Source: an uncultured Eubacteriales bacterium (lineage in GTDB: Bacteria; Bacillota; Clostridia; Lachnospirales; Lachnospiraceae). From it: a stretch of 16,051 nucleotides of DNA. Position numbers and translations under genes: made by a program. A model generated the notes under the pieces. That model had not been told where the DNA came from. It ran no database searches and worked only from the letters and a program-made list of their open reading frames with translations. Every line of letters starts with the position of its first letter. Position 1 is the stretch's first letter. Positions 790 to 11,625 of the stretch are shown here, in pieces. Where the stretch lies: NCBI GenBank assembly GCA_900313765.1, contig OMSN01000036.1:1-16051 (forward strand), in the 5' to 3' direction.

Positions 790-1356
790 ATGCTGTTTAA
801 CAGTTTGGATAAATTCAAAAGAAAAATGGTCATGCTGATCGTTCTTCTCATGTTCGCGGGACTGATGATGTTTGTGATTCCGGTATCTTACGTACCGCTG
901 CTTGGGAAAGGGCTCGGATTCATTTTCCTTGTACTCTCCATCCTTCAGGTACTGGAGTTCATCGGGAGCAACAAAGCGCTGATCCATTATATCCGACTGT
1001 TTGTGGGACTGCTGGCCGGAATGGCCGGCGTCCTGCTGTTCTCTGCAGACGGGTTATTTCTTACGCTTCTGAACTGGCTGGTCGGGACATTGCCGATCCT
1101 GCTCGGGGGCTATGGTCTGTACCATGCCCTGACATACGCGCGGCGGTCCGGCCGCAGCGGCTGGTGGGTGCTTGTGATCTTAAGCTGCCTGCTGCTGCTG
1201 TTCGGTACGATCCTTTTTGTGAATCCATGGGCAGATGACCCGCGCAAAGTGTTATATGTGATTGGCGGGACACTTTTCTATTCTGCGGTGGTATATGCGA
1301 TAAGCCTGTTCTGGATCTGGCCATTTCGGCGTGATAATGGGAGTGAGATAGAATGA
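790..1356 (+). CDS. HdeD/DUF308-family six-helix membrane protein, copy 1
   Basis: The 188-residue protein is almost entirely hydrophobic, with about six membrane segments (residues ~13-31, 39-57, 67-85, 90-113, 124-144, 154-175) in three hairpins. This is the layout of the HdeD/DUF308 family (HdeD is named for acid resistance in E. coli; biochemical role unknown). It aligns without gaps through residue 179 with the second copy at 5471-6019. PVSY (31-34), YARR (116-119), VNPW (144-147), VIGG (157-160) and WPF (177-179) fall at identical positions. AAAGGA at 777-782 is the ribosome site. The stop overlaps the UbiB start as ATGA, so the two are probably translationally coupled and may act together at the membrane. 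The partnership is inferred from the coupling and the repeated gene order. Confidence 0.85.
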   Translation: MLFNSLDKFKRKMVMLIVLLMFAGLMMFVIPVSYVPLLGKGLGFIFLVLSILQVLEFIGSNKALIHYIRLFVGLLAGMAGVLLFSADGLFLTLLNWLVGTLPILLGGYGLYHALTYARRSGRSGWWVLVILSCLLLLFGTILFVNPWADDPRKVLYVIGGTLFYSAVVYAISLFWIWPFRRDNGSEIE

Positions 1357-2984
1357 CCGATCAACAAACCATGAAAAATGAAAAACCGAAAAAGAATAAA
1401 AAACGTTCCGCTGAGATCTTCGGTGTATTTGCGAAACATAACTTTTATACAAACGGTTTTACGCCGGAGGAACTGAGAACGACGCTGGAGGATCTCGGTC
1501 CCACGTATGTCAAGATCGGACAGATCATGTCCAGCCGAACCGACATGCTTCCGAAGAGTTACTGCAGGGAGCTGGAGAAACTGCGCAGCACCGTGAAACC
1601 GCTGGAGGCAGAAGTCGCGCGGGCAGTCATCGAGCAGGAGACCGGAAAAAGAATCGAAGAGCTGTACAGTGAGTTCCGCGATGAACCTCTCGGCTCCGCG
1701 TCGATCGCCCAGGCACATTACGGTGTACTTCTTGACGGAACACGGGTCGTGACCAAGGTGCAGCGTCCGGGAATAGCGGACATGATGCGGGAGGATTTTG
1801 TTCTTCTGAACAAACTTGCCGGAATGGTGAACGCGACAGCCGAGGGAGATGACGAGGCGGAGACTCTTGATCTGAAAGGAATCCTGCATGAACTGGAGAA
1901 GGTCACGGAGGAGGAACTGGACTTCAGGATTGAAGCGGACCATACCAGAACGTTCCGGAAACTGTGCCTGGAAGATGAGTCGCAGGTTTCCTGCCCGCGG
2001 ATCATTGACGAGCTGACCTCGAAACATATCCTCACGATGACCTTTGTGGACGGGTACTCCATCTCCCACAGAGACCGTGTGGAGGAAGAGGGGTATGACC
2101 GTCTGGAGATCGGGAAAGCGCTCCTGAACAATTACCTGCATCAGGTGCTTGACGCAGGGTTCTTCCACGGAGATCCGCATCAGGGAAACATCATGATCAG
2201 TGGAGGTGTGCCGTACTGGATCGATTTCGGCATGGTCGGACAGCTCTCTGAGGCAAACATCAGTGCCATCCAGAACCTGATCTTTGCACTGGTGCAGGAA
2301 GATGTGGAGGCAATGACCAATGCTGCCCTCGCACTGGGGACGGTGAAGGGAAAACTCAATAAGACGCGTCTGATGGACGATCTGGAGAGCATCAGCTCCC
2401 AGTATATGTCAGCGACAAACCTGAAGGATATTGATGTCGGCAAACTGATGGGCGAACTGACGGATCTTCTGAATGAGCATCACATCGCCGTATCTCCGGA
2501 ATACACAATGATGATCCGGAGCCTGGTCACCATGGAAGGCGTGCTGGAGATGTTCTGTCCGGAACTCGACCTGTTCGGCTTCCTTCAGGAGAAGCTGCTT
2601 TCCAGAGCAAAAGAAGGCATTGATTTAAAAGAGAAACTGACATCTGCGATGGGATCACTGGCGGCAACAACGCTCCGTACGGTAAAACTGCCCGGACTTG
2701 CTTCGGACGTACTGCGGAATCTTGTGAAGGGCAGGCTGAAGATCAGTTTTGAACTGACAGGATACGAGGAGCCGTTCCATGTTCTGATCGAAGTGATCAA
2801 AAATGTATTGATCGCTATATTTGCGTGTGTGATCTTCAGCGGATCGTGCAGGATATACACGGCATCGATGCCGCCGCTGATCGACGGTGTTTCACTGTTT
2901 GCGCTGGCTGGATTTGCCGTTTCCATCGCGCTGGCGATCTATTCCATCAGAAAACTGATTAAGGCTGCGGAAGGAAAACACTGA
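1353..2984 (+). CDS. UbiB/ABC1/AarF-family atypical kinase-like protein, copy 1
   Basis: The 543-residue protein carries the full UbiB/ADCK signature. It has the KxGQ motif (K54-Q57, in TYVKIGQIMSSR), the alanine-rich loop GSASIAQAH (114-122), the nucleotide-binding lysine K135 in VTKVQRPG, the ExD motif (E188, D190), the catalytic-loop HGDPHQGN (272-279) and DFG (291-293). Two C-terminal membrane helices (~478-498, 512-533) anchor it. The N-terminus is short and lysine-rich. Characterised relatives (UbiB, COQ8) are ATPases that support ubiquinone synthesis by acting on lipid intermediates or extracting them from membranes. This host is probably an anaerobe without ubiquinone, so the client is unknown. 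All key residues are present, so activity is expected. It overlaps the upstream HdeD-type gene by ATGA. It is closely similar to copy 2, whose corresponding residues are offset by a constant 95 positions as far as the catalytic loop. Confidence 0.93.
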   Translation: MTDQQTMKNEKPKKNKKRSAEIFGVFAKHNFYTNGFTPEELRTTLEDLGPTYVKIGQIMSSRTDMLPKSYCRELEKLRSTVKPLEAEVARAVIEQETGKRIEELYSEFRDEPLGSASIAQAHYGVLLDGTRVVTKVQRPGIADMMREDFVLLNKLAGMVNATAEGDDEAETLDLKGILHELEKVTEEELDFRIEADHTRTFRKLCLEDESQVSCPRIIDELTSKHILTMTFVDGYSISHRDRVEEEGYDRLEIGKALLNNYLHQVLDAGFFHGDPHQGNIMISGGVPYWIDFGMVGQLSEANISAIQNLIFALVQEDVEAMTNAALALGTVKGKLNKTRLMDDLESISSQYMSATNLKDIDVGKLMGELTDLLNEHHIAVSPEYTMMIRSLVTMEGVLEMFCPELDLFGFLQEKLLSRAKEGIDLKEKLTSAMGSLAATTLRTVKLPGLASDVLRNLVKGRLKISFELTGYEEPFHVLIEVIKNVLIAIFACVIFSGSCRIYTASMPPLIDGVSLFALAGFAVSIALAIYSIRKLIKAAEGKH

Positions 2985-3003
2985 AAAAGGAGTTTTTCGA
3001 GAA

Positions 3004-3933
3004 ATGAATTATAAAGAACTGATCGACCCGGAACTGAGAAAGAGCGCCAATTCTTTTCCGTTTAATCCTGCGATCGTAGCGGTAGGCAATCTGTATCAGG
3101 ACCTGGAGTGGGGCCGGACGAAGGCTCCTGAGGGAATGGAGGAAACGGAGATTGTCACGGAAGGCACGCAGAAACTTTCCGTAAAGACGACGGTTTTTTC
3201 CATGGCAGACGCACAGGCAGACGCGCCGGCTCTTATCTACGTACACGGCGGGGCTTTTGCCTATAAGGCAGCGGCCTATCAGAAGAAGCTCGCCATGATC
3301 TATGCGAAGAAAGCCGGCTGCAAAGTCTTCTTCCCACACTATCATCTGGCGCCGAAGTATCCGTATCCGGCGGCCTATGAGGATGTCATGGCGCTGTATC
3401 GGTATGTGACAGAACATGCCAGGGAGCTTGGTGTCGACCCGACCCGGATCGGGATTGCAGGGGACAGCGCAGGCGCTTCGCTTGCGGCGCTGGTCTGTAA
3501 CCGCTGGGAAGAAGAGAACGTGAAGATGCCCTGCCTTCAGATGCTTGTATATCCGGTCACGGATGCGAGAATGGAAACGGAATCCATGAAGTTGTTTACG
3601 GATACGCCGAACTGGGATTCCAGGGCAAATGAGCGCATGTGGGATTACTACTGCGGCAAAGACGGTGAAAAGAGAGACAAGGCGTCTCCCATGTGGTGTG
3701 ATCTTCCGTCGGCACTTCCTGGGACCTATATTGAGACAGCAGAGTTTGACTGCCTGCATGATGAGGGACTGGCATATGCTGAAAAACTGAAACAGGCGGG
3801 AGTGGATGTGGAGATCAATGAAACCGAAGGAACATTTCACGGATATGACGCTGCGATCGATACGCAGATCGTGAAACAACAGATAAGCAGACGTATCTCA
3901 TTTTTGCGAAACGGATATAGAGAAAGGGGATAA
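3004..3933 (+). CDS. Alpha/beta hydrolase, HSL-type (acetyl)esterase
   Basis: The 309-residue protein has the complete hormone-sensitive-lipase-type alpha/beta hydrolase motif set. It shows the oxyanion-hole motif HGGAF (81-85), the nucleophile elbow GDSAG (153-157, Ser155), the acid in AEFDCLHDEG (Asp249 most likely) and the histidine in TFHGYD (His279). It has no signal peptide, so it should act in the cytoplasm on short acyl esters or small carboxylic esters; the natural substrate cannot be read from the sequence. An AAGGAG site lies about 11 nt before the ATG, 19 nt after the UbiB stop. It is followed after 1 nt by the acyltransferase-like gene, so hydrolysis and transfer of acyl groups may be paired functions. 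The family call is firm and the role is inferred. Confidence 0.93.
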   Translation: MNYKELIDPELRKSANSFPFNPAIVAVGNLYQDLEWGRTKAPEGMEETEIVTEGTQKLSVKTTVFSMADAQADAPALIYVHGGAFAYKAAAYQKKLAMIYAKKAGCKVFFPHYHLAPKYPYPAAYEDVMALYRYVTEHARELGVDPTRIGIAGDSAGASLAALVCNRWEEENVKMPCLQMLVYPVTDARMETESMKLFTDTPNWDSRANERMWDYYCGKDGEKRDKASPMWCDLPSALPGTYIETAEFDCLHDEGLAYAEKLKQAGVDVEINETEGTFHGYDAAIDTQIVKQQISRRISFLRNGYRERG

Positions 3934-3934
3934 A

Positions 3935-5251
3935 ATGGCTACGAATCCGGATGTTTATTTACTTTATGAATACAGAAAGAAAAATGCTTTTACAGTCCGC
4001 ATGAAGATAACTCTGGATGAGGCAGTGGACGAGGCACTGCTGACACAGGCGGCCAGAGAGGCGATGACCCGTTTCCCATACTATTCCGTTAAGGTTGGTC
4101 TTGATGAGGGTGAGAATTACGTTCTTCTTCCCAATGATCGACAGATCAAAGTTCTGCCGGAGAAGGATGAGCGCCTGGTGCTCGGATCCGAAGAAGTGGC
4201 AGAGCACCTGTTCGCGATTACCTGGAGAGGCAGCGACATCTGGTTCAACTGGGCGCACTGCATGTGCGGCGCGTATGGAGCGATGTACTGGATCAAGACG
4301 ACCCTGTACCAGTATATGACCAAAAAATATGGCCCGATGACGCCGCCGGTTGACCTGAAAGAGGTCGGATCGGTGGTTGATGAAGCGGAATATGCCTGTC
4401 CCGATGTCGATCAGCTTCCGACGGACGATCCTCTGAAGCGCTACGAAGAAGGAGACAGTCTGTTCGGGATCGTAGATGATTACGTTTATTTCCTGAATCC
4501 CTTTGCAAATGACGTCTACTACTATCAGGTTGAACTTGAGAGCAAGGCTTTCATGGATTATGCAAAGAGGATCGATGGAAGTCCCAATTCCGTTCTGGCC
4601 GCCATCATGATGAAAACGTCCGCGCGCTATTTCCAGCAGAAGGATGGTTGGCATATTTCGGCAAAAATAGCGGATGACTATCGGAAAGATATCGGATGCG
4701 ACAAGTCCTACCGGGATTATGTCAGGTTTATCCATGTAAAATACGACTGGGAGATGGAGCAGGAATCCATAGAACGGTTAAGCCAGCGCGCGCGAGGCGC
4801 GATCATCACCCAGATGCAGCCGGAGAACAGTTTCGAGTGGTACCGGCAGCTTGTCGAAGCCAGGAAAGGGATCGACGCCCAGCCCGATCTTAAGGCCAAG
4901 ATCAAGTACGCCCAGAAACACAGTATATACACCAGCGATGCCCGGGACACCTATATGGTCAGCTACGTGGGAAGGACAGACTGGGGCGGCATGGCGGAAC
5001 ATGTCAGATCCGCCTACACCATCACGGATGGTAATCTGATGCTGGAGGTGAATGCGCTTCCGGATAAGTTCTGCGTCACCTTCCAGCTGCTCACAAAGGA
5101 CAGAAAACCGCTTGATCTGTTCTGTGATGTATTGAAGGAAGAGCAGCTGCCCTATACTGTTTCAGAGGGCATGGTGCGGTATATGCCTGACCTGCAGCTG
5201 CCAAAGGCACCATCCAAGGGACTGCCGGGGAAGATCCCGACTCTGACATAA
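3935..5251 (+). CDS. CoA-dependent acyltransferase / condensation-domain superfamily protein (alcohol acetyltransferase-like)
   Basis: The 438-residue protein has the two-lobed layout of the chloramphenicol acetyltransferase/condensation superfamily. The N-terminal lobe has the typical opening strand and helix (residues ~18-50) and a central strand ending in FNWAHCMCGAYG, where the HxxxDG catalytic motif belongs. The C-terminal lobe has the MVSYVGRTDWGGM strand and the later NALPDKFCVTF strand typical of alcohol O-acetyltransferase-like members. The catalytic-position histidine is H108, but the usual Asp and Gly of HxxxDG are Gly112 and Ala113, so the motif is degenerate. The start follows the esterase stop by 1 nt with an AGAAAGGGGA ribosome site (3921-3930). 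There is no membrane segment. It may acylate a lipid or alcohol, or be a binding rather than a catalytic protein. The superfamily is fairly sure; activity is uncertain. Confidence 0.7.
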   Translation: MATNPDVYLLYEYRKKNAFTVRMKITLDEAVDEALLTQAAREAMTRFPYYSVKVGLDEGENYVLLPNDRQIKVLPEKDERLVLGSEEVAEHLFAITWRGSDIWFNWAHCMCGAYGAMYWIKTTLYQYMTKKYGPMTPPVDLKEVGSVVDEAEYACPDVDQLPTDDPLKRYEEGDSLFGIVDDYVYFLNPFANDVYYYQVELESKAFMDYAKRIDGSPNSVLAAIMMKTSARYFQQKDGWHISAKIADDYRKDIGCDKSYRDYVRFIHVKYDWEMEQESIERLSQRARGAIITQMQPENSFEWYRQLVEARKGIDAQPDLKAKIKYAQKHSIYTSDARDTYMVSYVGRTDWGGMAEHVRSAYTITDGNLMLEVNALPDKFCVTFQLLTKDRKPLDLFCDVLKEEQLPYTVSEGMVRYMPDLQLPKAPSKGLPGKIPTLT

Positions 5252-5287
5252 TACATGTGATGTAATTGCGGTTACAGTCAGACAGAA

Positions 5288-5324
5288 TCATCTGCGCTTC
5301 AGGCGCAGGATCGGTGCTTTTTTT
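5288..5324 (+). terminator. Probable rho-independent terminator after the acyltransferase-like gene
   Basis: CTGCGC (5292-5297) pairs with GCGCAG (5303-5308) around a 5-nt TTCAG loop, and flanking ATC/GAT can extend the stem across a small bulge. A run of seven T follows at 5318-5324, after a 9-nt gap that is longer than ideal. It lies just past a stop and just before a recognisable promoter, which supports an operon boundary here. Confidence 0.5.
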
Positions 5325-5358
5325 GTGGTCTGCAGAGCAAAACATGAACAGGGAGTTC

Positions 5359-5387
5359 TTGATATTGAGCGGATAAAGCGGTATTAT
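5359..5387 (+). promoter_or_regulatory. Sigma-70/SigA-type promoter of the second HdeD-UbiB operon
   Basis: TTGATA (5359-5364) and TATTAT (5382-5387) are separated by exactly 17 bases, each one mismatch from the housekeeping consensus. Transcription would begin near 5394, giving a leader of about 75 nt before the ATG at 5471. The promoter follows a terminator-like hairpin. The -35 box lies inside one arm of a 9-bp inverted repeat (5357-5365 with 5440-5448), so a regulator could cover it. Confidence 0.7.
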
Positions 5388-5397
5388 TTTTAAATAC

Positions 5398-5433
5398 TCC
5401 CGGCAGTTTTGGCATCCATTTGATCTGCCGGGA
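5398..5433 (+). promoter_or_regulatory. 5'-leader stem-loop upstream of HdeD copy 2
   Basis: TCCCGGCAG (5398-5406) pairs perfectly with CTGCCGGGA (5425-5433), a 9-bp GC-rich stem with an 18-nt loop. It lies at the very 5' end of the transcript predicted from the promoter at 5359-5387. No T-run follows, so it is not an obvious terminator. It could stabilise the mRNA 5' end or be part of a regulatory leader. The ribosome site AGGGAGG (5454-5460) is outside the stem. Confidence 0.5.
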
Positions 5434-5470
5434 TCATTTATATCAAGAGTAAAAGGGAGGAATTATTGGA

Positions 5471-6019
5471 ATGCTTTTTCAGGAGCTCGGAAAAATGAAA
5501 CGAACCTGGATCATGACATCGATCATCTTGATCGCGTTCGGCATCGTCATGATCCTGTGTCCAGTCTCGTATATGGGGATGATGATCTCCGCGCTGGGGT
5601 ATGTGCTCTTAGTGTGGGCAGTTGTCATGGGCCTGGACTATCTGGCAAGCAAGAAGACGCTGATGAACTATATCACACTGACCTTTTCGCTGTTTATCGG
5701 CATACTGGGATTATTCGTGCTGGTGCACCGCAGAGACGTTCTTCCGATCTTGTGTCTTTTGTTCGGACTGTTTCTGATCTTTGAGGGCCTCAGTGATCTG
5801 TTCAACGCCTTTGTATACGCACGGCGTGCGGGACAGGCTGCCTGGTGGTTCCTGGCGATCCTGTCCGTGCTGACGATCGCGATGGGTGTGGTCCTTCTGG
5901 TCAATCCGTGGTGGGATACTCCCTCTGCGCTGAAGCAGGTGATCGGAGGTATGATGCTGTTTTCCTCTTTGGTAAGCATTATCAGGACGATCATGACCTG
6001 GCCGTTCAAGAGTGTATAA
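5471..6019 (+). CDS. HdeD/DUF308-family six-helix membrane protein, copy 2
   Basis: The 182-residue protein has about six membrane helices and is a paralogue of the protein encoded at 790-1356. It aligns gap-free over residues 1-179, with the same PVSY, YARR, VNPW, VIGG and WPF motifs at the same positions. It differs mainly in the loops and lacks the acidic C-terminal tail of copy 1. It is the first gene after a clear promoter and a structured leader, with AGGGAGG 10 nt before the ATG, and is followed 16 nt later by the second UbiB-type gene. The family is linked to acid or envelope stress in enterobacteria, but no molecular activity is established. A role as membrane partner of the UbiB-type protein is inferred from the duplicated order. 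Confidence 0.87.
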   Translation: MLFQELGKMKRTWIMTSIILIAFGIVMILCPVSYMGMMISALGYVLLVWAVVMGLDYLASKKTLMNYITLTFSLFIGILGLFVLVHRRDVLPILCLLFGLFLIFEGLSDLFNAFVYARRAGQAAWWFLAILSVLTIAMGVVLLVNPWWDTPSALKQVIGGMMLFSSLVSIIRTIMTWPFKSV

Positions 6020-6035
6020 GAGGAGGGATAGAGCG

Positions 6036-7946
6036 ATGTCGAAAAAACAGAACAAGAATAAGAACCGGAATAACAGCCCGGACAATAAGAACATAACGGC
6101 TCAGGAGCTGGAGACGAAGGCGGAAGAGCTGAAGGAGACTGCCCGGGAGCTGGAAGAGAAGGCGGAAGAACTGAAGGAGAATGCCCAGGAGAAGGCGGAA
6201 GAGCTGAAGGGAAATGTCCAGGAAAAAGCGGGAGAGCTGAAGGGGAATGTCCAGGAGAAAGCGGGAGAGCTGAAGGAGAATGCCCAGGAGAAGGTGCAGG
6301 AACTGCAGGCGGCAGCCGATGGTAATCTGGATGCGCTCAAGGAACTGGAGCAGAAGGGGAAGAAGAAAGGCCGCGGCATCGAGATCTTCGGTGTCTTTGC
6401 GAAGCACAACTTCTATGCGAACGGCCTGACGCCGGAAGAGTTGAGAACCACACTGGAAGATCTGGGACCGACGTATGTCAAGATCGGTCAGATCATGTCC
6501 AGCCGTCTGGATCTTCTGCCGGAGAGCTACTGCAAGGAACTGGAGAAGCTGCGTCAGAACGTGCAGGAACTGGATCCGAAGCTGGCCCGTGCCGTGATCG
6601 AGCAGGAGACGGGGAAGAAGATCGATGAGATCTACAGCGAGTTCCGTGATGAGCCGCTTGGTTCGGCATCTGTCGGACAGGCACACTATGGTGTACTCAA
6701 AGACGGCCGCAGAGTCGTGACGAAGGTGCAGCGTCCGTTTATTGCGGATATGATGCGCGAGGACTTCGTCATGCTGAAGAAGCTGGCAAAAGGCGTCAGC
6801 ACCGTCGGAGAGAATCCGGATGCAGATAACCAGATGGATCTGGTTGAAGTGATCGAAGAATTCGAGAAGGTGACGGAGGAAGAACTGGACTTCCGCGTGG
6901 AGGCTCAGAATACCCGTTACTTTAAGGAACATGTCATCGAGGATGAGTCGAAGATCACCTGCCCGGATGTCATCGATGAACTGACGACAGAGCGGATCTT
7001 CACGATGTCCTTTGTCGATGGATACTCAGTCTCGAAGAGAGATAAGATCATCGAGGATGGTTTTGATGTAGAGCAGATCGGACGCAGCATCGTGGACAGC
7101 TATGTGCACCAGGTGCTGGATGTGGGAACCTTCCATGCGGATCCGCATCAGGGCAACCTCATGGTCCAGAGAGAGAGCGGTGTGCCGGAATGGATCGACT
7201 TCGGCATGATCGGACGCATCACAGACAGTGATATCAAGATCATCCAGCAGCTGGTACTGGCAGTACTGGAGAAGGATGTGGAGACGATCGCGAACGCGAT
7301 CCTGAGTCTGGGAGCCTCGTCTGCCAAGACCAACAGAGACCGTCTGATCGAGGATCTGGATATCTTCATGGATCAGTATGTCAATGTGACAAGCATCGAT
7401 GATCTGGACATGTCGCGGCTGTTTGAAGAGATCTGCACGCTGGCAGACAAACACCAGATCAAACTGCCGGGCAGGTTCACGATGCTGGTAAGATCTCTGG
7501 CAACCATTGAAGGCGTGATCGAGCAGCTGTGCCCGTCCCTGAATCTGTTCGAGATTGTCTCATCGAAACTGATGGACCGCGCGAAGGCAAGCTTTGATCT
7601 GGAACAGGAGATCCTCTCCATCGGGAAGGATGCCCTGGAGATCAGCAAGAAGGCAGCCAGGATTCCGGCTCTTGCGTCGGATGTCCTCAAGGGAGTTGCC
7701 AGAGGCCGGACGAAGATCAACCTGGAACTGACCGGTTATGAAGAACTGCTGAACAAGGGTGGTGACTCCATCAAGAATGTGGTCCTGGCACTGTTTGCCT
7801 GCATTCTGTTTGTGGGATCCTGTATCCTGGCACTGGCAGATATTACTCCGAAAGCACCCGGCGGATTACCGGCGCTCTCGGCGATCGGCCTGATCTTCTC
7901 CATCGCTCTTGCGATCTATACGGTGAAGAGCATCGGAAAGAAATAA
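6036..7946 (+). CDS. UbiB/ABC1/AarF-family atypical kinase-like protein, copy 2, with N-terminal 11-residue repeats
   Basis: The ATG at 6036 is chosen because AGGAGGGA lies just upstream (6021-6028); a GTG at 6012 would place that site inside the gene. The 636-residue product begins with a polar K/N-rich stretch (1-20) and an amphipathic charged helix (21-91) holding four tandem 11-residue repeats, EKAxELKxNxQ (41-84), plus a partial fifth. The UbiB core follows: K149xGQ152, GSASVGQAH (209-217), K230, ExD E283/D285, HADPHQGN (367-374) and DFG (389-391). Two C-terminal membrane helices lie at ~579-600 and 612-631. All kinase-like residues are intact. From 'EIFGVFAKHNFY' onward it closely matches copy 1, so the repeat region is an addition of roughly 95 residues. 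The repeats have the 3-4-4 hydrophobic spacing of hendecad helices, suggesting coiled-coil or lipid-surface binding (inference). The client lipid or protein is unknown. Confidence 0.93.
   Translation: MSKKQNKNKNRNNSPDNKNITAQELETKAEELKETARELEEKAEELKENAQEKAEELKGNVQEKAGELKGNVQEKAGELKENAQEKVQELQAAADGNLDALKELEQKGKKKGRGIEIFGVFAKHNFYANGLTPEELRTTLEDLGPTYVKIGQIMSSRLDLLPESYCKELEKLRQNVQELDPKLARAVIEQETGKKIDEIYSEFRDEPLGSASVGQAHYGVLKDGRRVVTKVQRPFIADMMREDFVMLKKLAKGVSTVGENPDADNQMDLVEVIEEFEKVTEEELDFRVEAQNTRYFKEHVIEDESKITCPDVIDELTTERIFTMSFVDGYSVSKRDKIIEDGFDVEQIGRSIVDSYVHQVLDVGTFHADPHQGNLMVQRESGVPEWIDFGMIGRITDSDIKIIQQLVLAVLEKDVETIANAILSLGASSAKTNRDRLIEDLDIFMDQYVNVTSIDDLDMSRLFEEICTLADKHQIKLPGRFTMLVRSLATIEGVIEQLCPSLNLFEIVSSKLMDRAKASFDLEQEILSIGKDALEISKKAARIPALASDVLKGVARGRTKINLELTGYEELLNKGGDSIKNVVLALFACILFVGSCILALADITPKAPGGLPALSAIGLIFSIALAIYTVKSIGKK
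6156..6308 (+). repeat. In-frame 33-bp tandem repeat (4 units plus partial)
   Basis: Units at 6156-6188, 6189-6221, 6222-6254 and 6255-6287, with a partial unit at 6288-6308, each encode EKA(E/G)ELK(E/G)N(A/V)Q. Units 2-4 are nearly identical at DNA level, which points to recent slippage or unequal exchange; unit number may vary between strains. Confidence 0.9.
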
Positions 7947-8043: not shown

Positions 8044-8670
8044 ATGGCAACAAACATCGTGGTAAGTCTTTTTGAGGTTGAGAGCGAAGCATATCAGGCT
8101 ATGACACAGCTGAAGCAGTATCCGGGAGATGACAGATCATTTGTATCTGCAGCGGTTCTCGTAAAGAAGGAGAATGGTGTACTGCGTACACTGGACGCAT
8201 ATGATTCCGGAGCGCATACAACGGATGACACCGCAGTCGGAGGACTGGTCGGAGCTCTGTTCGGTGTACTCGGCGGCCCGATCGGCGTTCTGCTTGGCGG
8301 AAGCTATGGCCTGCTTGTCGGTTCCCTGTTGGATGCAGATGATACTATGACAGGTGTTTCCCTGCTTGAGCAGATCGCGCAGAAGACAGAGGAAGGCGAA
8401 GTAGCGATCATTGGTCTTGTATTCGAAGAGGATGAAGCGATCCTGGATCAGAAACTGTCCGGATTCAAGACGATCATTGCACGCTTTGATGCGGCAGATG
8501 TGGCGGCGGAAGTCGAAGAAGCCCGTATGCTGGAGGACGAGATGGCTCGTCAGGCCCGCAAGGAGCTTCGTGATGAGAAGAAGGCATCCCGCAAGGAGAA
8601 GAGAGCCGAGAAGAAAGAGAAACTGTCAGCTGAGTGGGCAGGATTCAAGGCGAAGTTCAAGAAAGACTGA
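8044..8670 (+). CDS. DUF1269-like glycine-zipper membrane-associated protein
   Basis: The 208-residue protein has a ferredoxin-like N-terminal strand pattern (MATNIVVSLFEVESEAYQAM), in which the conserved start resembles DUF1269 and general-stress 17M-type proteins. A Gly-rich hydrophobic segment follows (residues ~64-97, with repeated GxxxG and GG steps), long enough for a membrane hairpin or glycine zipper. After a second alpha/beta segment (~117-150) comes a long Lys/Arg/Glu helix (151-208). There is no enzyme motif. AAGGAG lies about 10 nt upstream, and the next gene starts 26 nt after the stop, so it is part of the UbiB operon. Function in the family is unknown; a stress or membrane-integrity role is a guess from relatives and neighbours. 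Confidence 0.7.
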   Translation: MATNIVVSLFEVESEAYQAMTQLKQYPGDDRSFVSAAVLVKKENGVLRTLDAYDSGAHTTDDTAVGGLVGALFGVLGGPIGVLLGGSYGLLVGSLLDADDTMTGVSLLEQIAQKTEEGEVAIIGLVFEEDEAILDQKLSGFKTIIARFDAADVAAEVEEARMLEDEMARQARKELRDEKKASRKEKRAEKKEKLSAEWAGFKAKFKKD

Positions 8671-8696
8671 TCATCTGAATCAGGGAGGAAACACCT

Positions 8697-9563
8697 ATGG
8701 AAGTAAAAAAGATAAGCATCCGTGAAGCAAAGAAGAGAATTAAAAATGATCCGGAACTGAGCAAGATGCTGGTTCGCAGCGGATGGAGAGAGATTGCTCT
8801 CGATCTGGACGGCGACGGCATGGCAGACGTTTCATTTTCCAGTGAAAAAGTCGGAAGAAAGATCGATACGATCGCGGTCGATCTGAGCGGAAACGGAGAG
8901 TATAATCTCTATCTGCACGATTTTGACGGAAACGGGATTCCGGATACGGTCTGCCTGGTTGAAGATGGTGAAGAGGAACAGGTCGTCGCGTTTGGCGGTG
9001 AAGTGGAACTGGGATTCATCAACCTGGGAGTCCGTGTTGCCAATCTGCTTGTGGCGGAAGACTTCATGAACAGAGAACTGGGCATCTCACTGGCGGATCT
9101 GGCTGCTTACCTGAAGATGCATGCTGCAGCCATGCTGGTTGAGCTGGAGAAGAGGGAGAATGCGGAAGGCATCGATAAGGTCTATTATTTCCTGAACGAT
9201 GCGCAGACCTATTATCTGGCAACCGTAGATGGAGACAAGCCCAGGGTCAGACCCTTCGGCACAATCCTTCTTTATGAAGGAAAGCTGTACATCCAGACAG
9301 GAAAGGTCAAGGATGTCTCCAAACAGATCAGTGAGAATCCGTTTGTTGAGATCTGTGCTTACATGAATGGCAGCTGGATCCGCATTGCGGCAGAGCTGGT
9401 TGAGGATGACAACCGTGATGTAAAGGTTGCCATGCTGGAGAAGATGCCGTCCCTGAAGGCGATGTACAGTGCGGATGATGAGAACACACAGGTGTTCTGG
9501 ATGAAGGATGCGACAGCTACCATCTGCTCCTTCACATCGGAGCCGGAAGTTATCAGCTTCTGA
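8697..9563 (+). CDS. Fusion protein: calcium-binding-type DxDxDG repeats plus PNPOx-like FMN split-barrel domain
   Basis: The 288-residue protein has two parts. The N-terminal ~100 residues hold three acidic loops of calcium-binding type: DLDGDGMAD (36-44), DLSGNGEYN (62-70) and DFDGNGIPD (75-83). Each is followed by a strand, as in EF-hand-like or thrombospondin-type-3/VCBS repeats; the middle copy is weaker. A helical linker (~105-155) leads to a pyridoxamine-5'-phosphate-oxidase-like split barrel (~160-280), recognised by YYLATVDGDKPRVRPFG, the LYIQTGKVKDVSKQI segment and NPFVEICAY. Such small barrels bind FMN, F420 or heme. It has no signal peptide or membrane helix, so the calcium-type loops would sit in the cytoplasm, which is unusual. 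The ribosome site is AGGGAGGA. The next gene, a flavodoxin-fold reductase, starts 9 nt later and could be its electron donor (inference). Confidence 0.8.
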   Translation: MEVKKISIREAKKRIKNDPELSKMLVRSGWREIALDLDGDGMADVSFSSEKVGRKIDTIAVDLSGNGEYNLYLHDFDGNGIPDTVCLVEDGEEEQVVAFGGEVELGFINLGVRVANLLVAEDFMNRELGISLADLAAYLKMHAAAMLVELEKRENAEGIDKVYYFLNDAQTYYLATVDGDKPRVRPFGTILLYEGKLYIQTGKVKDVSKQISENPFVEICAYMNGSWIRIAAELVEDDNRDVKVAMLEKMPSLKAMYSADDENTQVFWMKDATATICSFTSEPEVISF

Positions 9564-10206: not shown

Positions 10207-11625
10207 ATGTTAAGTCGGAAACTATCTGTATTACAGGATCTGGCAGATGCCCTGCCGAAAGAAGAACTGGAGAAAAGAGCAGCGCTGCCTTTTCTGCGGG
10301 AACTGAAGGAGAGCGTCCAGGGTACGGTTCAGGAAACCATTCAGGAAGCTGTGCAGAAAACAGTTGACACCGTACAGGAAACGGTACAGGACACGGTCCA
10401 GGAAACAGTCCAGAAAGCCGTGGAAGTTGTACAGAATACAGTAAGAGGTGAGCGGATCGCGATGCCGTTTCTCCATAATATGACACCGGATATCATATCG
10501 GAATGGAACTGGCAGGATTTTGATCCGGCAGGTCCGAATGATAAGCCGAATATGAATCTGGCGGTCATGGGACTGATCCTGGCCACCAATATCGAATCGA
10601 CAGTCGGAAAACATGCATGGAGTCTGGTGGAATACAGCCTCGACAGGCTTGGATTCACGAATATCGTGCATCAGTATTTTGAGTCGGCCGAGAAGGTCAA
10701 TCACCCGGCAATGGCTTTCGGCAGAAGTGTTGAAACGGTAAACGGCAAAACAGTTGTCGCCGCGGTCTATCGCGGAAGTTCCTCCATCGTGGATTTCATT
10801 TCCGACGCTAAGGCGGAACCGGGCGGATTCCATCAGGCAGGGATCAATGCAACAAATGAACTGAGAGCTTACTGCAGTTCACAGAAACTGACAAAGGAAA
10901 ATACGATCCTGTTCATTACTGGCCACAGTTATGGTGCTTCGAGCGCTTCCCTGGTCGGGATCATGAGCACCGACCTGGCGGAAAGGGATTCGATCTTCTG
11001 CTATTCCTATGCGACCCCGAATTACATCCGGAACGGTCTGACCGGTGAGGGAATGAAGATGTTCAGCTTCAACAGCAATGAGGACATCGTTCCCCAGGTG
11101 CCAGTCGGCCCGAATCTGGACAAGACGGGCGGAGTCATCCAGTATGACAGACTGGATATGAAACTGAACCATCCGGAGCAGTATGCGCGGTTCCTGAAGC
11201 TGTATGAACACTATCGGGACTGCGATTATGAGTCGGATACCGATTTCCTTCCGGATGCCTATACATTCAAGCCATATGTGAAACGGCCGGTGGACAATGT
11301 GATCATCCGGAACCATATGCCGTACACATACATGCCGTTCCTCCTCAGCGTCCTTCCGGACGAGGTGGTGGATTCCTATATCGTGGAAGTTCCGAAGCCT
11401 GCTGCGAAAGAGCAGGGACCGGACTGGGAGATGTTCGTCGGTGAAGTGTATAAACTGCCGCTTACTGGAATCGGTCTGTTTACCTGGGAGAGTTCGGACA
11501 CTTCCGTTGCCTCGATCAATGAAAAAGGGATGATAACAGGAGTGTCTGCGGGAGATGCACTGCTGACGGTCACATCCCCGGGCGGAAAACAGACGACCCT
11601 TAAGATATGTGTTCTGGAAGCGTAG
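10207..11625 (+). CDS. Class-3-lipase-like alpha/beta hydrolase with amphipathic VQxT repeats and a C-terminal Ig-like (BIG2) domain
   Basis: The start at 10207 is chosen for its AAGGAG site (about 10196-10201); the frame is open upstream but overlaps the previous gene. The 472-residue product has three parts. Residues 37-80 form a low-complexity helix of VQxT-type steps. Residues ~115-380 are a lipase_3-like hydrolase with AAVYRGSSS (185-193), the nucleophile elbow GHSYG (239-243, Ser241), Asp293 in NEDIVPQVP, and a likely catalytic His370 in NHMPYTYM. Residues ~408-470 are a bacterial Ig-like group 2 domain, with WESSDTSVASINEKGMITG being diagnostic. BIG2 domains are usually outside the cell, yet there is no signal peptide; the amphipathic helix may instead place it on a membrane. 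It probably cleaves acyl esters of lipids, but the substrate is not known. It is the last gene before a terminator-like hairpin. Confidence 0.83.
   Translation: MLSRKLSVLQDLADALPKEELEKRAALPFLRELKESVQGTVQETIQEAVQKTVDTVQETVQDTVQETVQKAVEVVQNTVRGERIAMPFLHNMTPDIISEWNWQDFDPAGPNDKPNMNLAVMGLILATNIESTVGKHAWSLVEYSLDRLGFTNIVHQYFESAEKVNHPAMAFGRSVETVNGKTVVAAVYRGSSSIVDFISDAKAEPGGFHQAGINATNELRAYCSSQKLTKENTILFITGHSYGASSASLVGIMSTDLAERDSIFCYSYATPNYIRNGLTGEGMKMFSFNSNEDIVPQVPVGPNLDKTGGVIQYDRLDMKLNHPEQYARFLKLYEHYRDCDYESDTDFLPDAYTFKPYVKRPVDNVIIRNHMPYTYMPFLLSVLPDEVVDSYIVEVPKPAAKEQGPDWEMFVGEVYKLPLTGIGLFTWESSDTSVASINEKGMITGVSAGDALLTVTSPGGKQTTLKICVLEA
10315..10446 (+). repeat. In-frame degenerate VQxT repeat of the lipase-like gene
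   Basis: This 132-bp stretch encodes 44 residues of VQ(E/D/K)T steps (residues 37-80). Hydrophobic V/I residues recur mostly every four positions with occasional three-residue steps, giving one hydrophobic stripe on a helix. The DNA units (gtncaggaaacngt-like) are diverged, so the repeat is older than the one in UbiB copy 2. Confidence 0.75.

Follow-up and report, generated by a model that had tools for sequence, protein, structure and literature searches.

Recurrent pairing of genes for a DUF308 membrane protein and a UbiB-type protein in one subfamily of clostridial UbiB homologues

The proteins of the UbiB/COQ8/ADCK (ABC1) family carry an ABC1 domain with the KxGQ motif, an A-rich loop, the catalytic Lys and the ExD, HxDPHxGN and DFG motifs, followed by two hydrophobic segments at the C-terminus. 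Their function is debated because it is entangled with coenzyme Q synthesis in model organisms. According to the accessible part of one study, UbiB proteins might couple an ATPase activity to extracting or depositing CoQ and might have a broader action on lipids, and the COQ8 fold confers ATPase activity and denies larger protein substrates access to the active site (PMC8346625). The same part of that source presents the yeast proteins Cqd1 and Cqd2 (Mcp2) as UbiB proteins acting on lipid distribution and not on quinone synthesis (PMC8346625). The HdeD/DUF308 membrane proteins constitute a separate group, with DUF308 repeats and six hydrophobic segments.

The window, that is, the whole stretch of 16,051 nucleotides that we analysed (contig C148 of a 2.2 Mb draft genome in 346 contigs, 75% complete), encodes two gene pairs in which a DUF308 membrane protein (H) precedes a UbiB-type protein (U). 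U has all the ABC1 family features listed above, but it differs from UbiB/COQ8/ADCK in several respects: it branches off as its own subfamily at the end of a long stem, scores below the UbiB equivalog cut-off, mostly reads DPHQGN in the printed forms, often has an N-terminal extension and a DUF308 neighbour, and occurs in a genus where no UbiA was found. Cqd1 and Cqd2 differ from it in being eukaryotic and mitochondrial and in having been shown to act on CoQ; to our knowledge, they have no known DUF308 partner. A similar arrangement is a clostridial pair of a phasin-like (PF05597-like) protein and a UbiB, which is likewise made of two genes with a small upstream partner and an ABC1-family protein and is found in the same genus, but whose partner is a helical protein of ~100 aa instead of the six-TM H and whose UbiB is of the canonical type. 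A sequence-only reading of this DNA did not know the DUF308-UbiB pairing to be described, and we found no account of it in open-licence PMC text either, where the sole co-mention of HdeD and UbiB is an E. coli pH/oxygen expression study, unrelated by its listing. The same text yielded no report of UbiB paired with phasin, the matches being unrelated by their listings.

Two gene pairs and their products

The features of the window are collected in Table 1. The sequence-only reading had described them as an HdeD-UbiB module present twice. This stands as far as the families are concerned, since DUF308 and ABC1 exceed their curated cut-offs in both pairs and thereby place H1 and H2 in DUF308 and U1 and U2 in the ABC1 family; PF03729 is also present in all 120 H2 relatives among the matches listed. 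The part that did not stand is the name HdeD, which is only a loose one: the HdeD equivalog NF007577 gave no match to H1 or H2 at E up to 0.01 and, with three H relatives, a single match of 16.5 bits to the H2-type H of locus L013, against a cut-off of 189. Judged by these profile scores, H is not a member of HdeD proper, with which it shares the DUF308 repeats and the six hydrophobic segments.

Table 1. Features of the window
Feature	Position	Strand	Description
H1	790-1356	+	DUF308 membrane protein, 188 aa, partner of U1; PF03729 29.2 bits, cut-off 25
U1	1353-2984	+	UbiB/ABC1 atypical kinase-like protein, 543 aa, short form without N-terminal extension; PF03109 205.4 bits, cut-off 22.9
Abhydrolase_3 esterase	3004-3933		Between the two pairs
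H2	5471-6019	+	DUF308 membrane protein, 182 aa, partner of U2; PF03729 44.7 bits, cut-off 25
U2	6036-7946	+	UbiB/ABC1 atypical kinase-like protein, 636 aa from ATG; PF03109 208.9 bits, cut-off 22.9
U2 N-terminal extension	6036-6371	+	~110 residues, repetitive, charged, coiled-coil-like; no counterpart in U1

The resemblance between the two pairs proved as close as had been read. H1 and H2, for which a gapless match over 179 residues had been claimed, align over 180 columns with 67 identities (37%) and 0 gaps, and their alignment score of 336 compares with a maximum of 69 among 200 shuffles. For U1 and U2 there are 286 identities in 531 columns (54%) with 3 gap columns, and a score of 1518 against at most 72 among 200 shuffles; residue 10 of U1 pairs with residue 105 of U2, and this offset of 95 is indeed constant up to the catalytic loop; immediately beyond the loop, a gap of 2 residues changes it by two. 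The tight spacing was also confirmed, H1 and U1 sharing an ATGA overlap and H2 and U2 being 16 nt apart.

Across the subfamily, KxGQ is kept in 40 of 40 rows, and an alignment of 52 rows shows little or no variation at the catalytic residues of U. Of the 28 rows that make up the six commonest forms printed, 25 have DPHQGN in place of DPHPGN. The top six sequence matches in the PDB are ABC1 proteins of bacteria together with COQ8A and COQ8B. With the UbiB equivalog TIGR01982, U1 and U2 reach 333.4 and 336.2 bits, below the cut-off of 487.55. The N-terminal extension was surveyed in the 69 U rows printed (67 loci and the two window proteins), four of which, L040 and L072-L074, were left out of the measurement, the last three because their open frames are long and extend into the overlapping H gene. 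Of the 69, 48 have an extension of 45-215 residues, often charged and coiled-coil-like, and in 17 it is absent or short (12-25 residues), namely in U1, its clade mates, L080, L016 and L075. L080 is U1-type, as are the clade mates of U1, all with an absent or short extension. That of U2 matches Apolipoprotein, LEA_4 and YtxH, each below its own cut-off. The extension in general is reminiscent of the phasin-like partner, any kinship between the two being hypothetical. No fusion of H to U was seen among 240 listed U homologues (the best 120 of each search).

The six hydrophobic segments of H are accompanied by peaks of positive charge at the N-terminus and in loops 2-3 and 4-5, a pattern which suggests an N-in topology, so that both termini of H are probably cytoplasmic. 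A conserved basic loop contains R119 and W125 (H2 numbering), invariant in 56 rows. The AlphaFold2 model of H2 consists of six helices (mean pLDDT 80, pTM 0.72), and its best structural matches lie only at the background level of helical bundles, so the fold of H yields no function.

Besides the esterase, a 438-residue protein without match in Pfam or NCBIfam lies between the two pairs. Two other loci are collinear with the U1 block (409 to about 5250): L058, which extends 5.7 kb further without H2-U2, and L054, which ends at that point; the U2 block resembles loci other than these. The junction of the blocks is bridged in 0 of the 18 other genomes of the genus, of which 9 match one side or the other and one (G005) both, on different contigs. 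Because of this unbridged junction, the side-by-side placement is taken as private to this contig, either a rearrangement or an assembly join. The only repeat found at 5240-5475 is one inverted repeat (5391-5440), and the first 408 bases, which diverge from the collinear relatives, look like a chimeric contig end. A recent tandem duplication was rejected, the two pairs falling into separate clades of both trees described below and the surroundings of the relatives' loci (up to 8 kb per side) holding one pair each.

Recurrence and common history of H and U

One genome per species was scanned with the U1/U2 alignment, giving 69 loci in 61 assemblies, mostly from uncultured gut and rumen bacteria. 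H lies directly upstream of U, on the same strand, in 67 of these 69 UbiB-anchored loci, with a spacing (by longest-ORF starts) of 0-18 nt in 33, overlaps of 1-41 nt in 24, gaps of 48-163 nt in 5 and larger apparent overlaps in the last 5; the relatives of H1 stand directly upstream of U1-type genes. The two loci without H have a U broken into two ORFs: as we read them, in L068 the U homology begins abruptly beside unrelated sequence, and in L071 the upstream remnant is the last 38 residues of an H, 71% identical to the H of L066. Since both misses are broken, every unbroken U of the subfamily in this set has its H. One locus, L021, comes from a strain-named record (FE2018) without MAG label, so a MAG artefact cannot account for the pair everywhere. 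The genes flanking H-U vary from locus to locus, and, apart from H, every neighbour is limited to 8 or fewer of the 61 loci with orderable genes; H itself scored only 50/61 in this neighbour table because competing ORFs displaced it.

Because the locus scan used the subfamily's own patterns, surveys anchored on the Pfam domain were added. In the genus of the window (19 genomes, ABC1 at E up to 1e-15), 15 genomes hold 27 ABC1 genes, 21 of the type found with H (HU-type) and 6 canonical. H is directly upstream of 20 of the 21, and the last one sits at a contig end with a C-terminal fragment of H alongside. A single genome can carry as many as three HU-type UbiBs (G011), and the coexistence of such UbiBs with canonical ones in three genomes (G001, G011, G017) means that the two types are not mutually exclusive. 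The other DUF308 genes of the genus reach 20-47 bits with the H1/H2 profile and are not beside a UbiB by coordinates. At the family level (200 genomes, nearly one per genus, same E-value), 35 ABC1 matches were obtained in 33 genomes. Five genes in four genomes belong to HU pairs (two in G000, one each in G379, G407 and G385, the H of the latter being split into two ORFs), and by coordinates none of the other 30 has a match to the H profile (E up to 1e-15) beside it; the second UbiB of G407 (L186) has neither H nor a phasin-like gene upstream.

The class survey covered 291 genomes and retained 57 ABC1 matches of >150 bits outside the window's own genome; weak matches (about 23-40 bits, partial coverage), including those on contigs C109 and C239 of that genome, were taken as Ser/Thr-kinase-like cross-matches and excluded. 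By coordinates, and within the limits set by contig breaks, 0 of the 57 adjoin an H-profile match. Eight class genomes with such an ABC1 also have an H-profile match (E up to 1e-3) elsewhere, in 5 of the 8 on a different contig of a draft. An association of DUF308 with UbiB across the whole class was rejected on this absence of adjacency. The survey proposed by the sequence-only reading, for DUF308 next to clostridial UbiB homologues, was thus right about recurrence but too wide in its scope, since the adjacency belongs to one subfamily only.

The history of the two genes was followed in quick IQ-TREE searches with SH-aLRT support only, on 63 of the 69 loci and the two window pairs (L073, L079, L080 and L081, with partial U, and the broken L068 and L071 were dropped), which gave 65 rows for H and 71 for U, including six canonical outgroups. 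A long stem with support 100 leads to the HU subfamily, in which U1 falls into a 16-row clade and U2 into a separate 12-row clade, and the H tree recovers both clades with support 99. The trees share 36 of their 62 splits each, and 500 shuffles of the labels never gave more than 3. The U tree contains 24 of 26 strong H splits and the H tree 27 of 31 strong U splits, with no strongly supported conflict between the two. Pairwise distances of H and U correlate at 0.88 (maximum 0.12 in 2000 shuffles), and 34 of 65 rows have the same nearest neighbour in both, which makes the agreement at fine scale moderate. Eight assemblies hold two loci each, with the paralogues on different contigs, and in the six that have both loci in the trees every H is in the clade matching its U. 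Because the same clades appear in both trees without strong conflict, the pair, as read from these sequences, has duplicated and spread as a unit, anciently, before the window's species arose, as the earlier suggestion of a joint duplication had it.

A putative membrane module and competing explanations

Canonical UbiBs of the same class offer a comparison. For 30 of them the ORFs up to 250 bp upstream were read, and 19, judging by eye from the starts printed, are preceded by a co-directional phasin-like gene of about 100 residues; by the same judgement such a gene precedes 11 of 12 non-HU UbiBs of the family, including L178 from the genus. For these 42 clostridial UbiBs, 30 of which follow a phasin-like gene, no H was seen among the upstream ORFs printed. 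Inside the genus, a phasin-like gene stands before 5 of 6 canonical UbiBs (the exception being L200) and before 0 of 21 HU-type UbiBs, one of which leaves only 133 bp of room. Five phasin-like examples fall in or near phasin families of Pfam and NCBIfam, 3 of 5 above the Pfam cut-off. Our phasin-like profile was built from 26 sequences picked by pattern in loci already read, L178 among them, and is for this reason not an independent test.

The genomic context bears on the nature of a possible lipid. A search for UbiA-family prenyltransferases (PF01040), which covered the window's genus only, found none in 19 genomes, 8 of which reach 90% completeness or more with no more than 5% contamination, and was positive in 14 of 14 controls. 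Quinone synthesis is hence an unlikely job for U there, and a prenyl-quinone pathway, judged by UbiA/MenA on PF01040 in partly incomplete genomes, is unlikely to be present. Immediately downstream of U, a cardiolipin-synthase-like gene with two PLD-type domains was observed in six loci (L014, L015, L045, L057, L062 and L076) at four separate places in the U tree, and a glycerophosphodiester phosphodiesterase in L030. The former are a minority (6 of the 57 loci that have 700 bp or more of downstream sequence), to be compared with about 0.03 neighbours expected in 57 loci under a rough binomial null assuming 2-3 such genes per 2400; since this null ignores the relatedness of loci, four independent cases are the fairer count. 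By reading of the matches, genomes have one or two cardiolipin-synthase-like genes; that of the window's own genome is on another contig (C128), and in the genus the neighbourhood was directly seen only in G008 and G016, apparently the species of L014 and L015. In yeast, the accessible part of another article reports that loss of cardiolipin was not the driver of the CoQ change studied (PMC13392021).

We consider, with somewhat better than even confidence, that a two-gene operon encodes H and U as components of a single functional membrane module, in which U would be a quinone-independent, ATP-driven lipid handler and H its membrane-embedded partner, the complex, the ATPase and the lipid all being putative. 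The functional unit formerly proposed for the DUF308 protein and the UbiB-type kinase gains support from the recurrent adjacency and the congruent trees, neither of the two outcomes named beforehand as refuting it (independent origins of the copies, no adjacency elsewhere) having occurred, and ATP-driven lipid handling is favoured because of the ATPase/lipid model for UbiB, the downstream lipid genes and the missing UbiA. According to this scheme, U would lie on the cytoplasmic face, anchored beside H by its C-terminal hairpin, and would bind or hydrolyse ATP, in the manner suggested for COQ8 and Cqd1/2, so as to draw a hydrophobic lipid out of the membrane or present it. H may recruit U or bind the lipid, taking the position that a phasin-like protein has before most of the other clostridial UbiBs read. 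A quinone is unlikely as the lipid; better guesses would be a phospholipid, for instance cardiolipin, or an isoprenoid carrier lipid. A bolder version, which we put forward tentatively and hold to be somewhat improbable, would make the UbiBs of anaerobic Clostridia general quinone-independent, ATP-driven extractors of membrane lipids with a dedicated lipid-interface partner encoded upstream, phasin-like in most lineages and replaced here, by a partner swap, with a six-helix DUF308 protein, in a lineage where it became a multi-copy family.

The invariant R119 and W125 of the basic loop, the strict pairing of H with U and the DUF308 name, which comes from an acid-resistance protein, could also be understood if U were a true protein kinase and H its substrate or a sensor of envelope/acid stress, U phosphorylating H or a third protein. 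This appears unlikely to us, since U retains the KxGQ motif and A-rich loop of UbiB, H reaches at most 16.5 bits against the 189 needed for HdeD, and the COQ8 fold, in the accessible part of the source, keeps larger protein substrates from the active site (PMC8346625). Still less probable is the explanation by operon inheritance of one ancestral neighbour pair whose products have no functional bond. A single origin of the pair suffices for linkage, and congruence of the trees alone is also expected from plain co-inheritance, the trees of vertically inherited neighbours agreeing anyway; but other neighbours are kept in at most 8 of 61 orderable loci, and paralogues lie on different contigs in the 8 two-locus assemblies, yet H-U is intact in all 67 unbroken loci. 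That the pair is kept while its other neighbours change argues for a functional bond. Finally, membership of U in the ABC1/UbiB family would suit a standard UbiB helper of prenyl-quinone biosynthesis with H as an accessory membrane protein of the pathway, a role made very improbable by the absence of UbiA in the window's genus (0/19 against 14/14 controls) and by TIGR01982 scores of 333-336 bits, below 487.55.

Taken as a membrane module, the H-U pair points to an undescribed two-part, perhaps lipid-handling, machine. If confirmed, it would separate the core activity of UbiB from quinones and name a likely partner, would place the little-understood DUF308 family in a functional setting, and would allow the hypothesis of lipid extraction to be tested on two small genes. 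A genus in which no UbiA-type prenyltransferase was found still has up to three HU-type UbiBs per genome, each beside its own co-evolving membrane protein.

Window end and a split H gene

The collinearity of the window with four UbiB-anchored loci of other genomes (L058, L054, L060 and L080) begins at about position 409, leaving the first ~408 bases outside it, and the break at ~408 interrupts an SDR-like gene. A search of the plasmid collection gave no match for positions 1-408, and this stretch is probably a chimeric contig end. At locus L188, from a genome of the family sample (G385), the gene of the DUF308 membrane protein (H) consists of two overlapping ORFs, while that of the downstream UbiB/ABC1 kinase-like protein (U) is unbroken; the split is due to a frameshift, a sequencing error or a truly divided gene.

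Other genes of the window

The 438-residue protein, which may be acyltransferase-like, had no match in Pfam or NCBIfam. Its gene is likewise retained behind the esterase gene in L054 and L058, adjoining U1-type pairs. Homologues of the two genes that follow U2 are found at varying positions near H-U pairs elsewhere (L030, L031, L041, L048 and others). The class 3 lipase carries an N-terminal repeat (VQETVQ...) whose style, by eye, resembles that of the U2 N-terminal extension.

Features of the window and of other UbiB-anchored loci
Feature	Location	Remark
438-residue protein	window 3935-5251	behind esterase gene
Gly-zipper-like and PNPOx-domain proteins	window 8044-9563	after U2; Gly-zipper match below cut-off
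Class 3 lipase with Big_2 domain	window 10207-11625	
H gene in two ORFs	L188 2261-2826	
Phasin-like gene with canonical UbiB	L141-L185	examples L177:863-1276, L174:2432-2818

Neighbors of UbiB genes in other genomes

Upstream of canonical clostridial UbiBs (those outside the H-U subfamily), a phasin-like gene is usual: it was counted, by eye from the sequence starts, in 19 of 30 cases of the class sample and 11 of 12 of the family sample; this arrangement also occurs in the genus without detectable UbiA. Downstream of the H-U pair, the next gene is cardiolipin-synthase-like, with two PLDc_2 domains, at six loci (L014, L015, L045, L057, L062 and L076), which occupy four places of the U tree.
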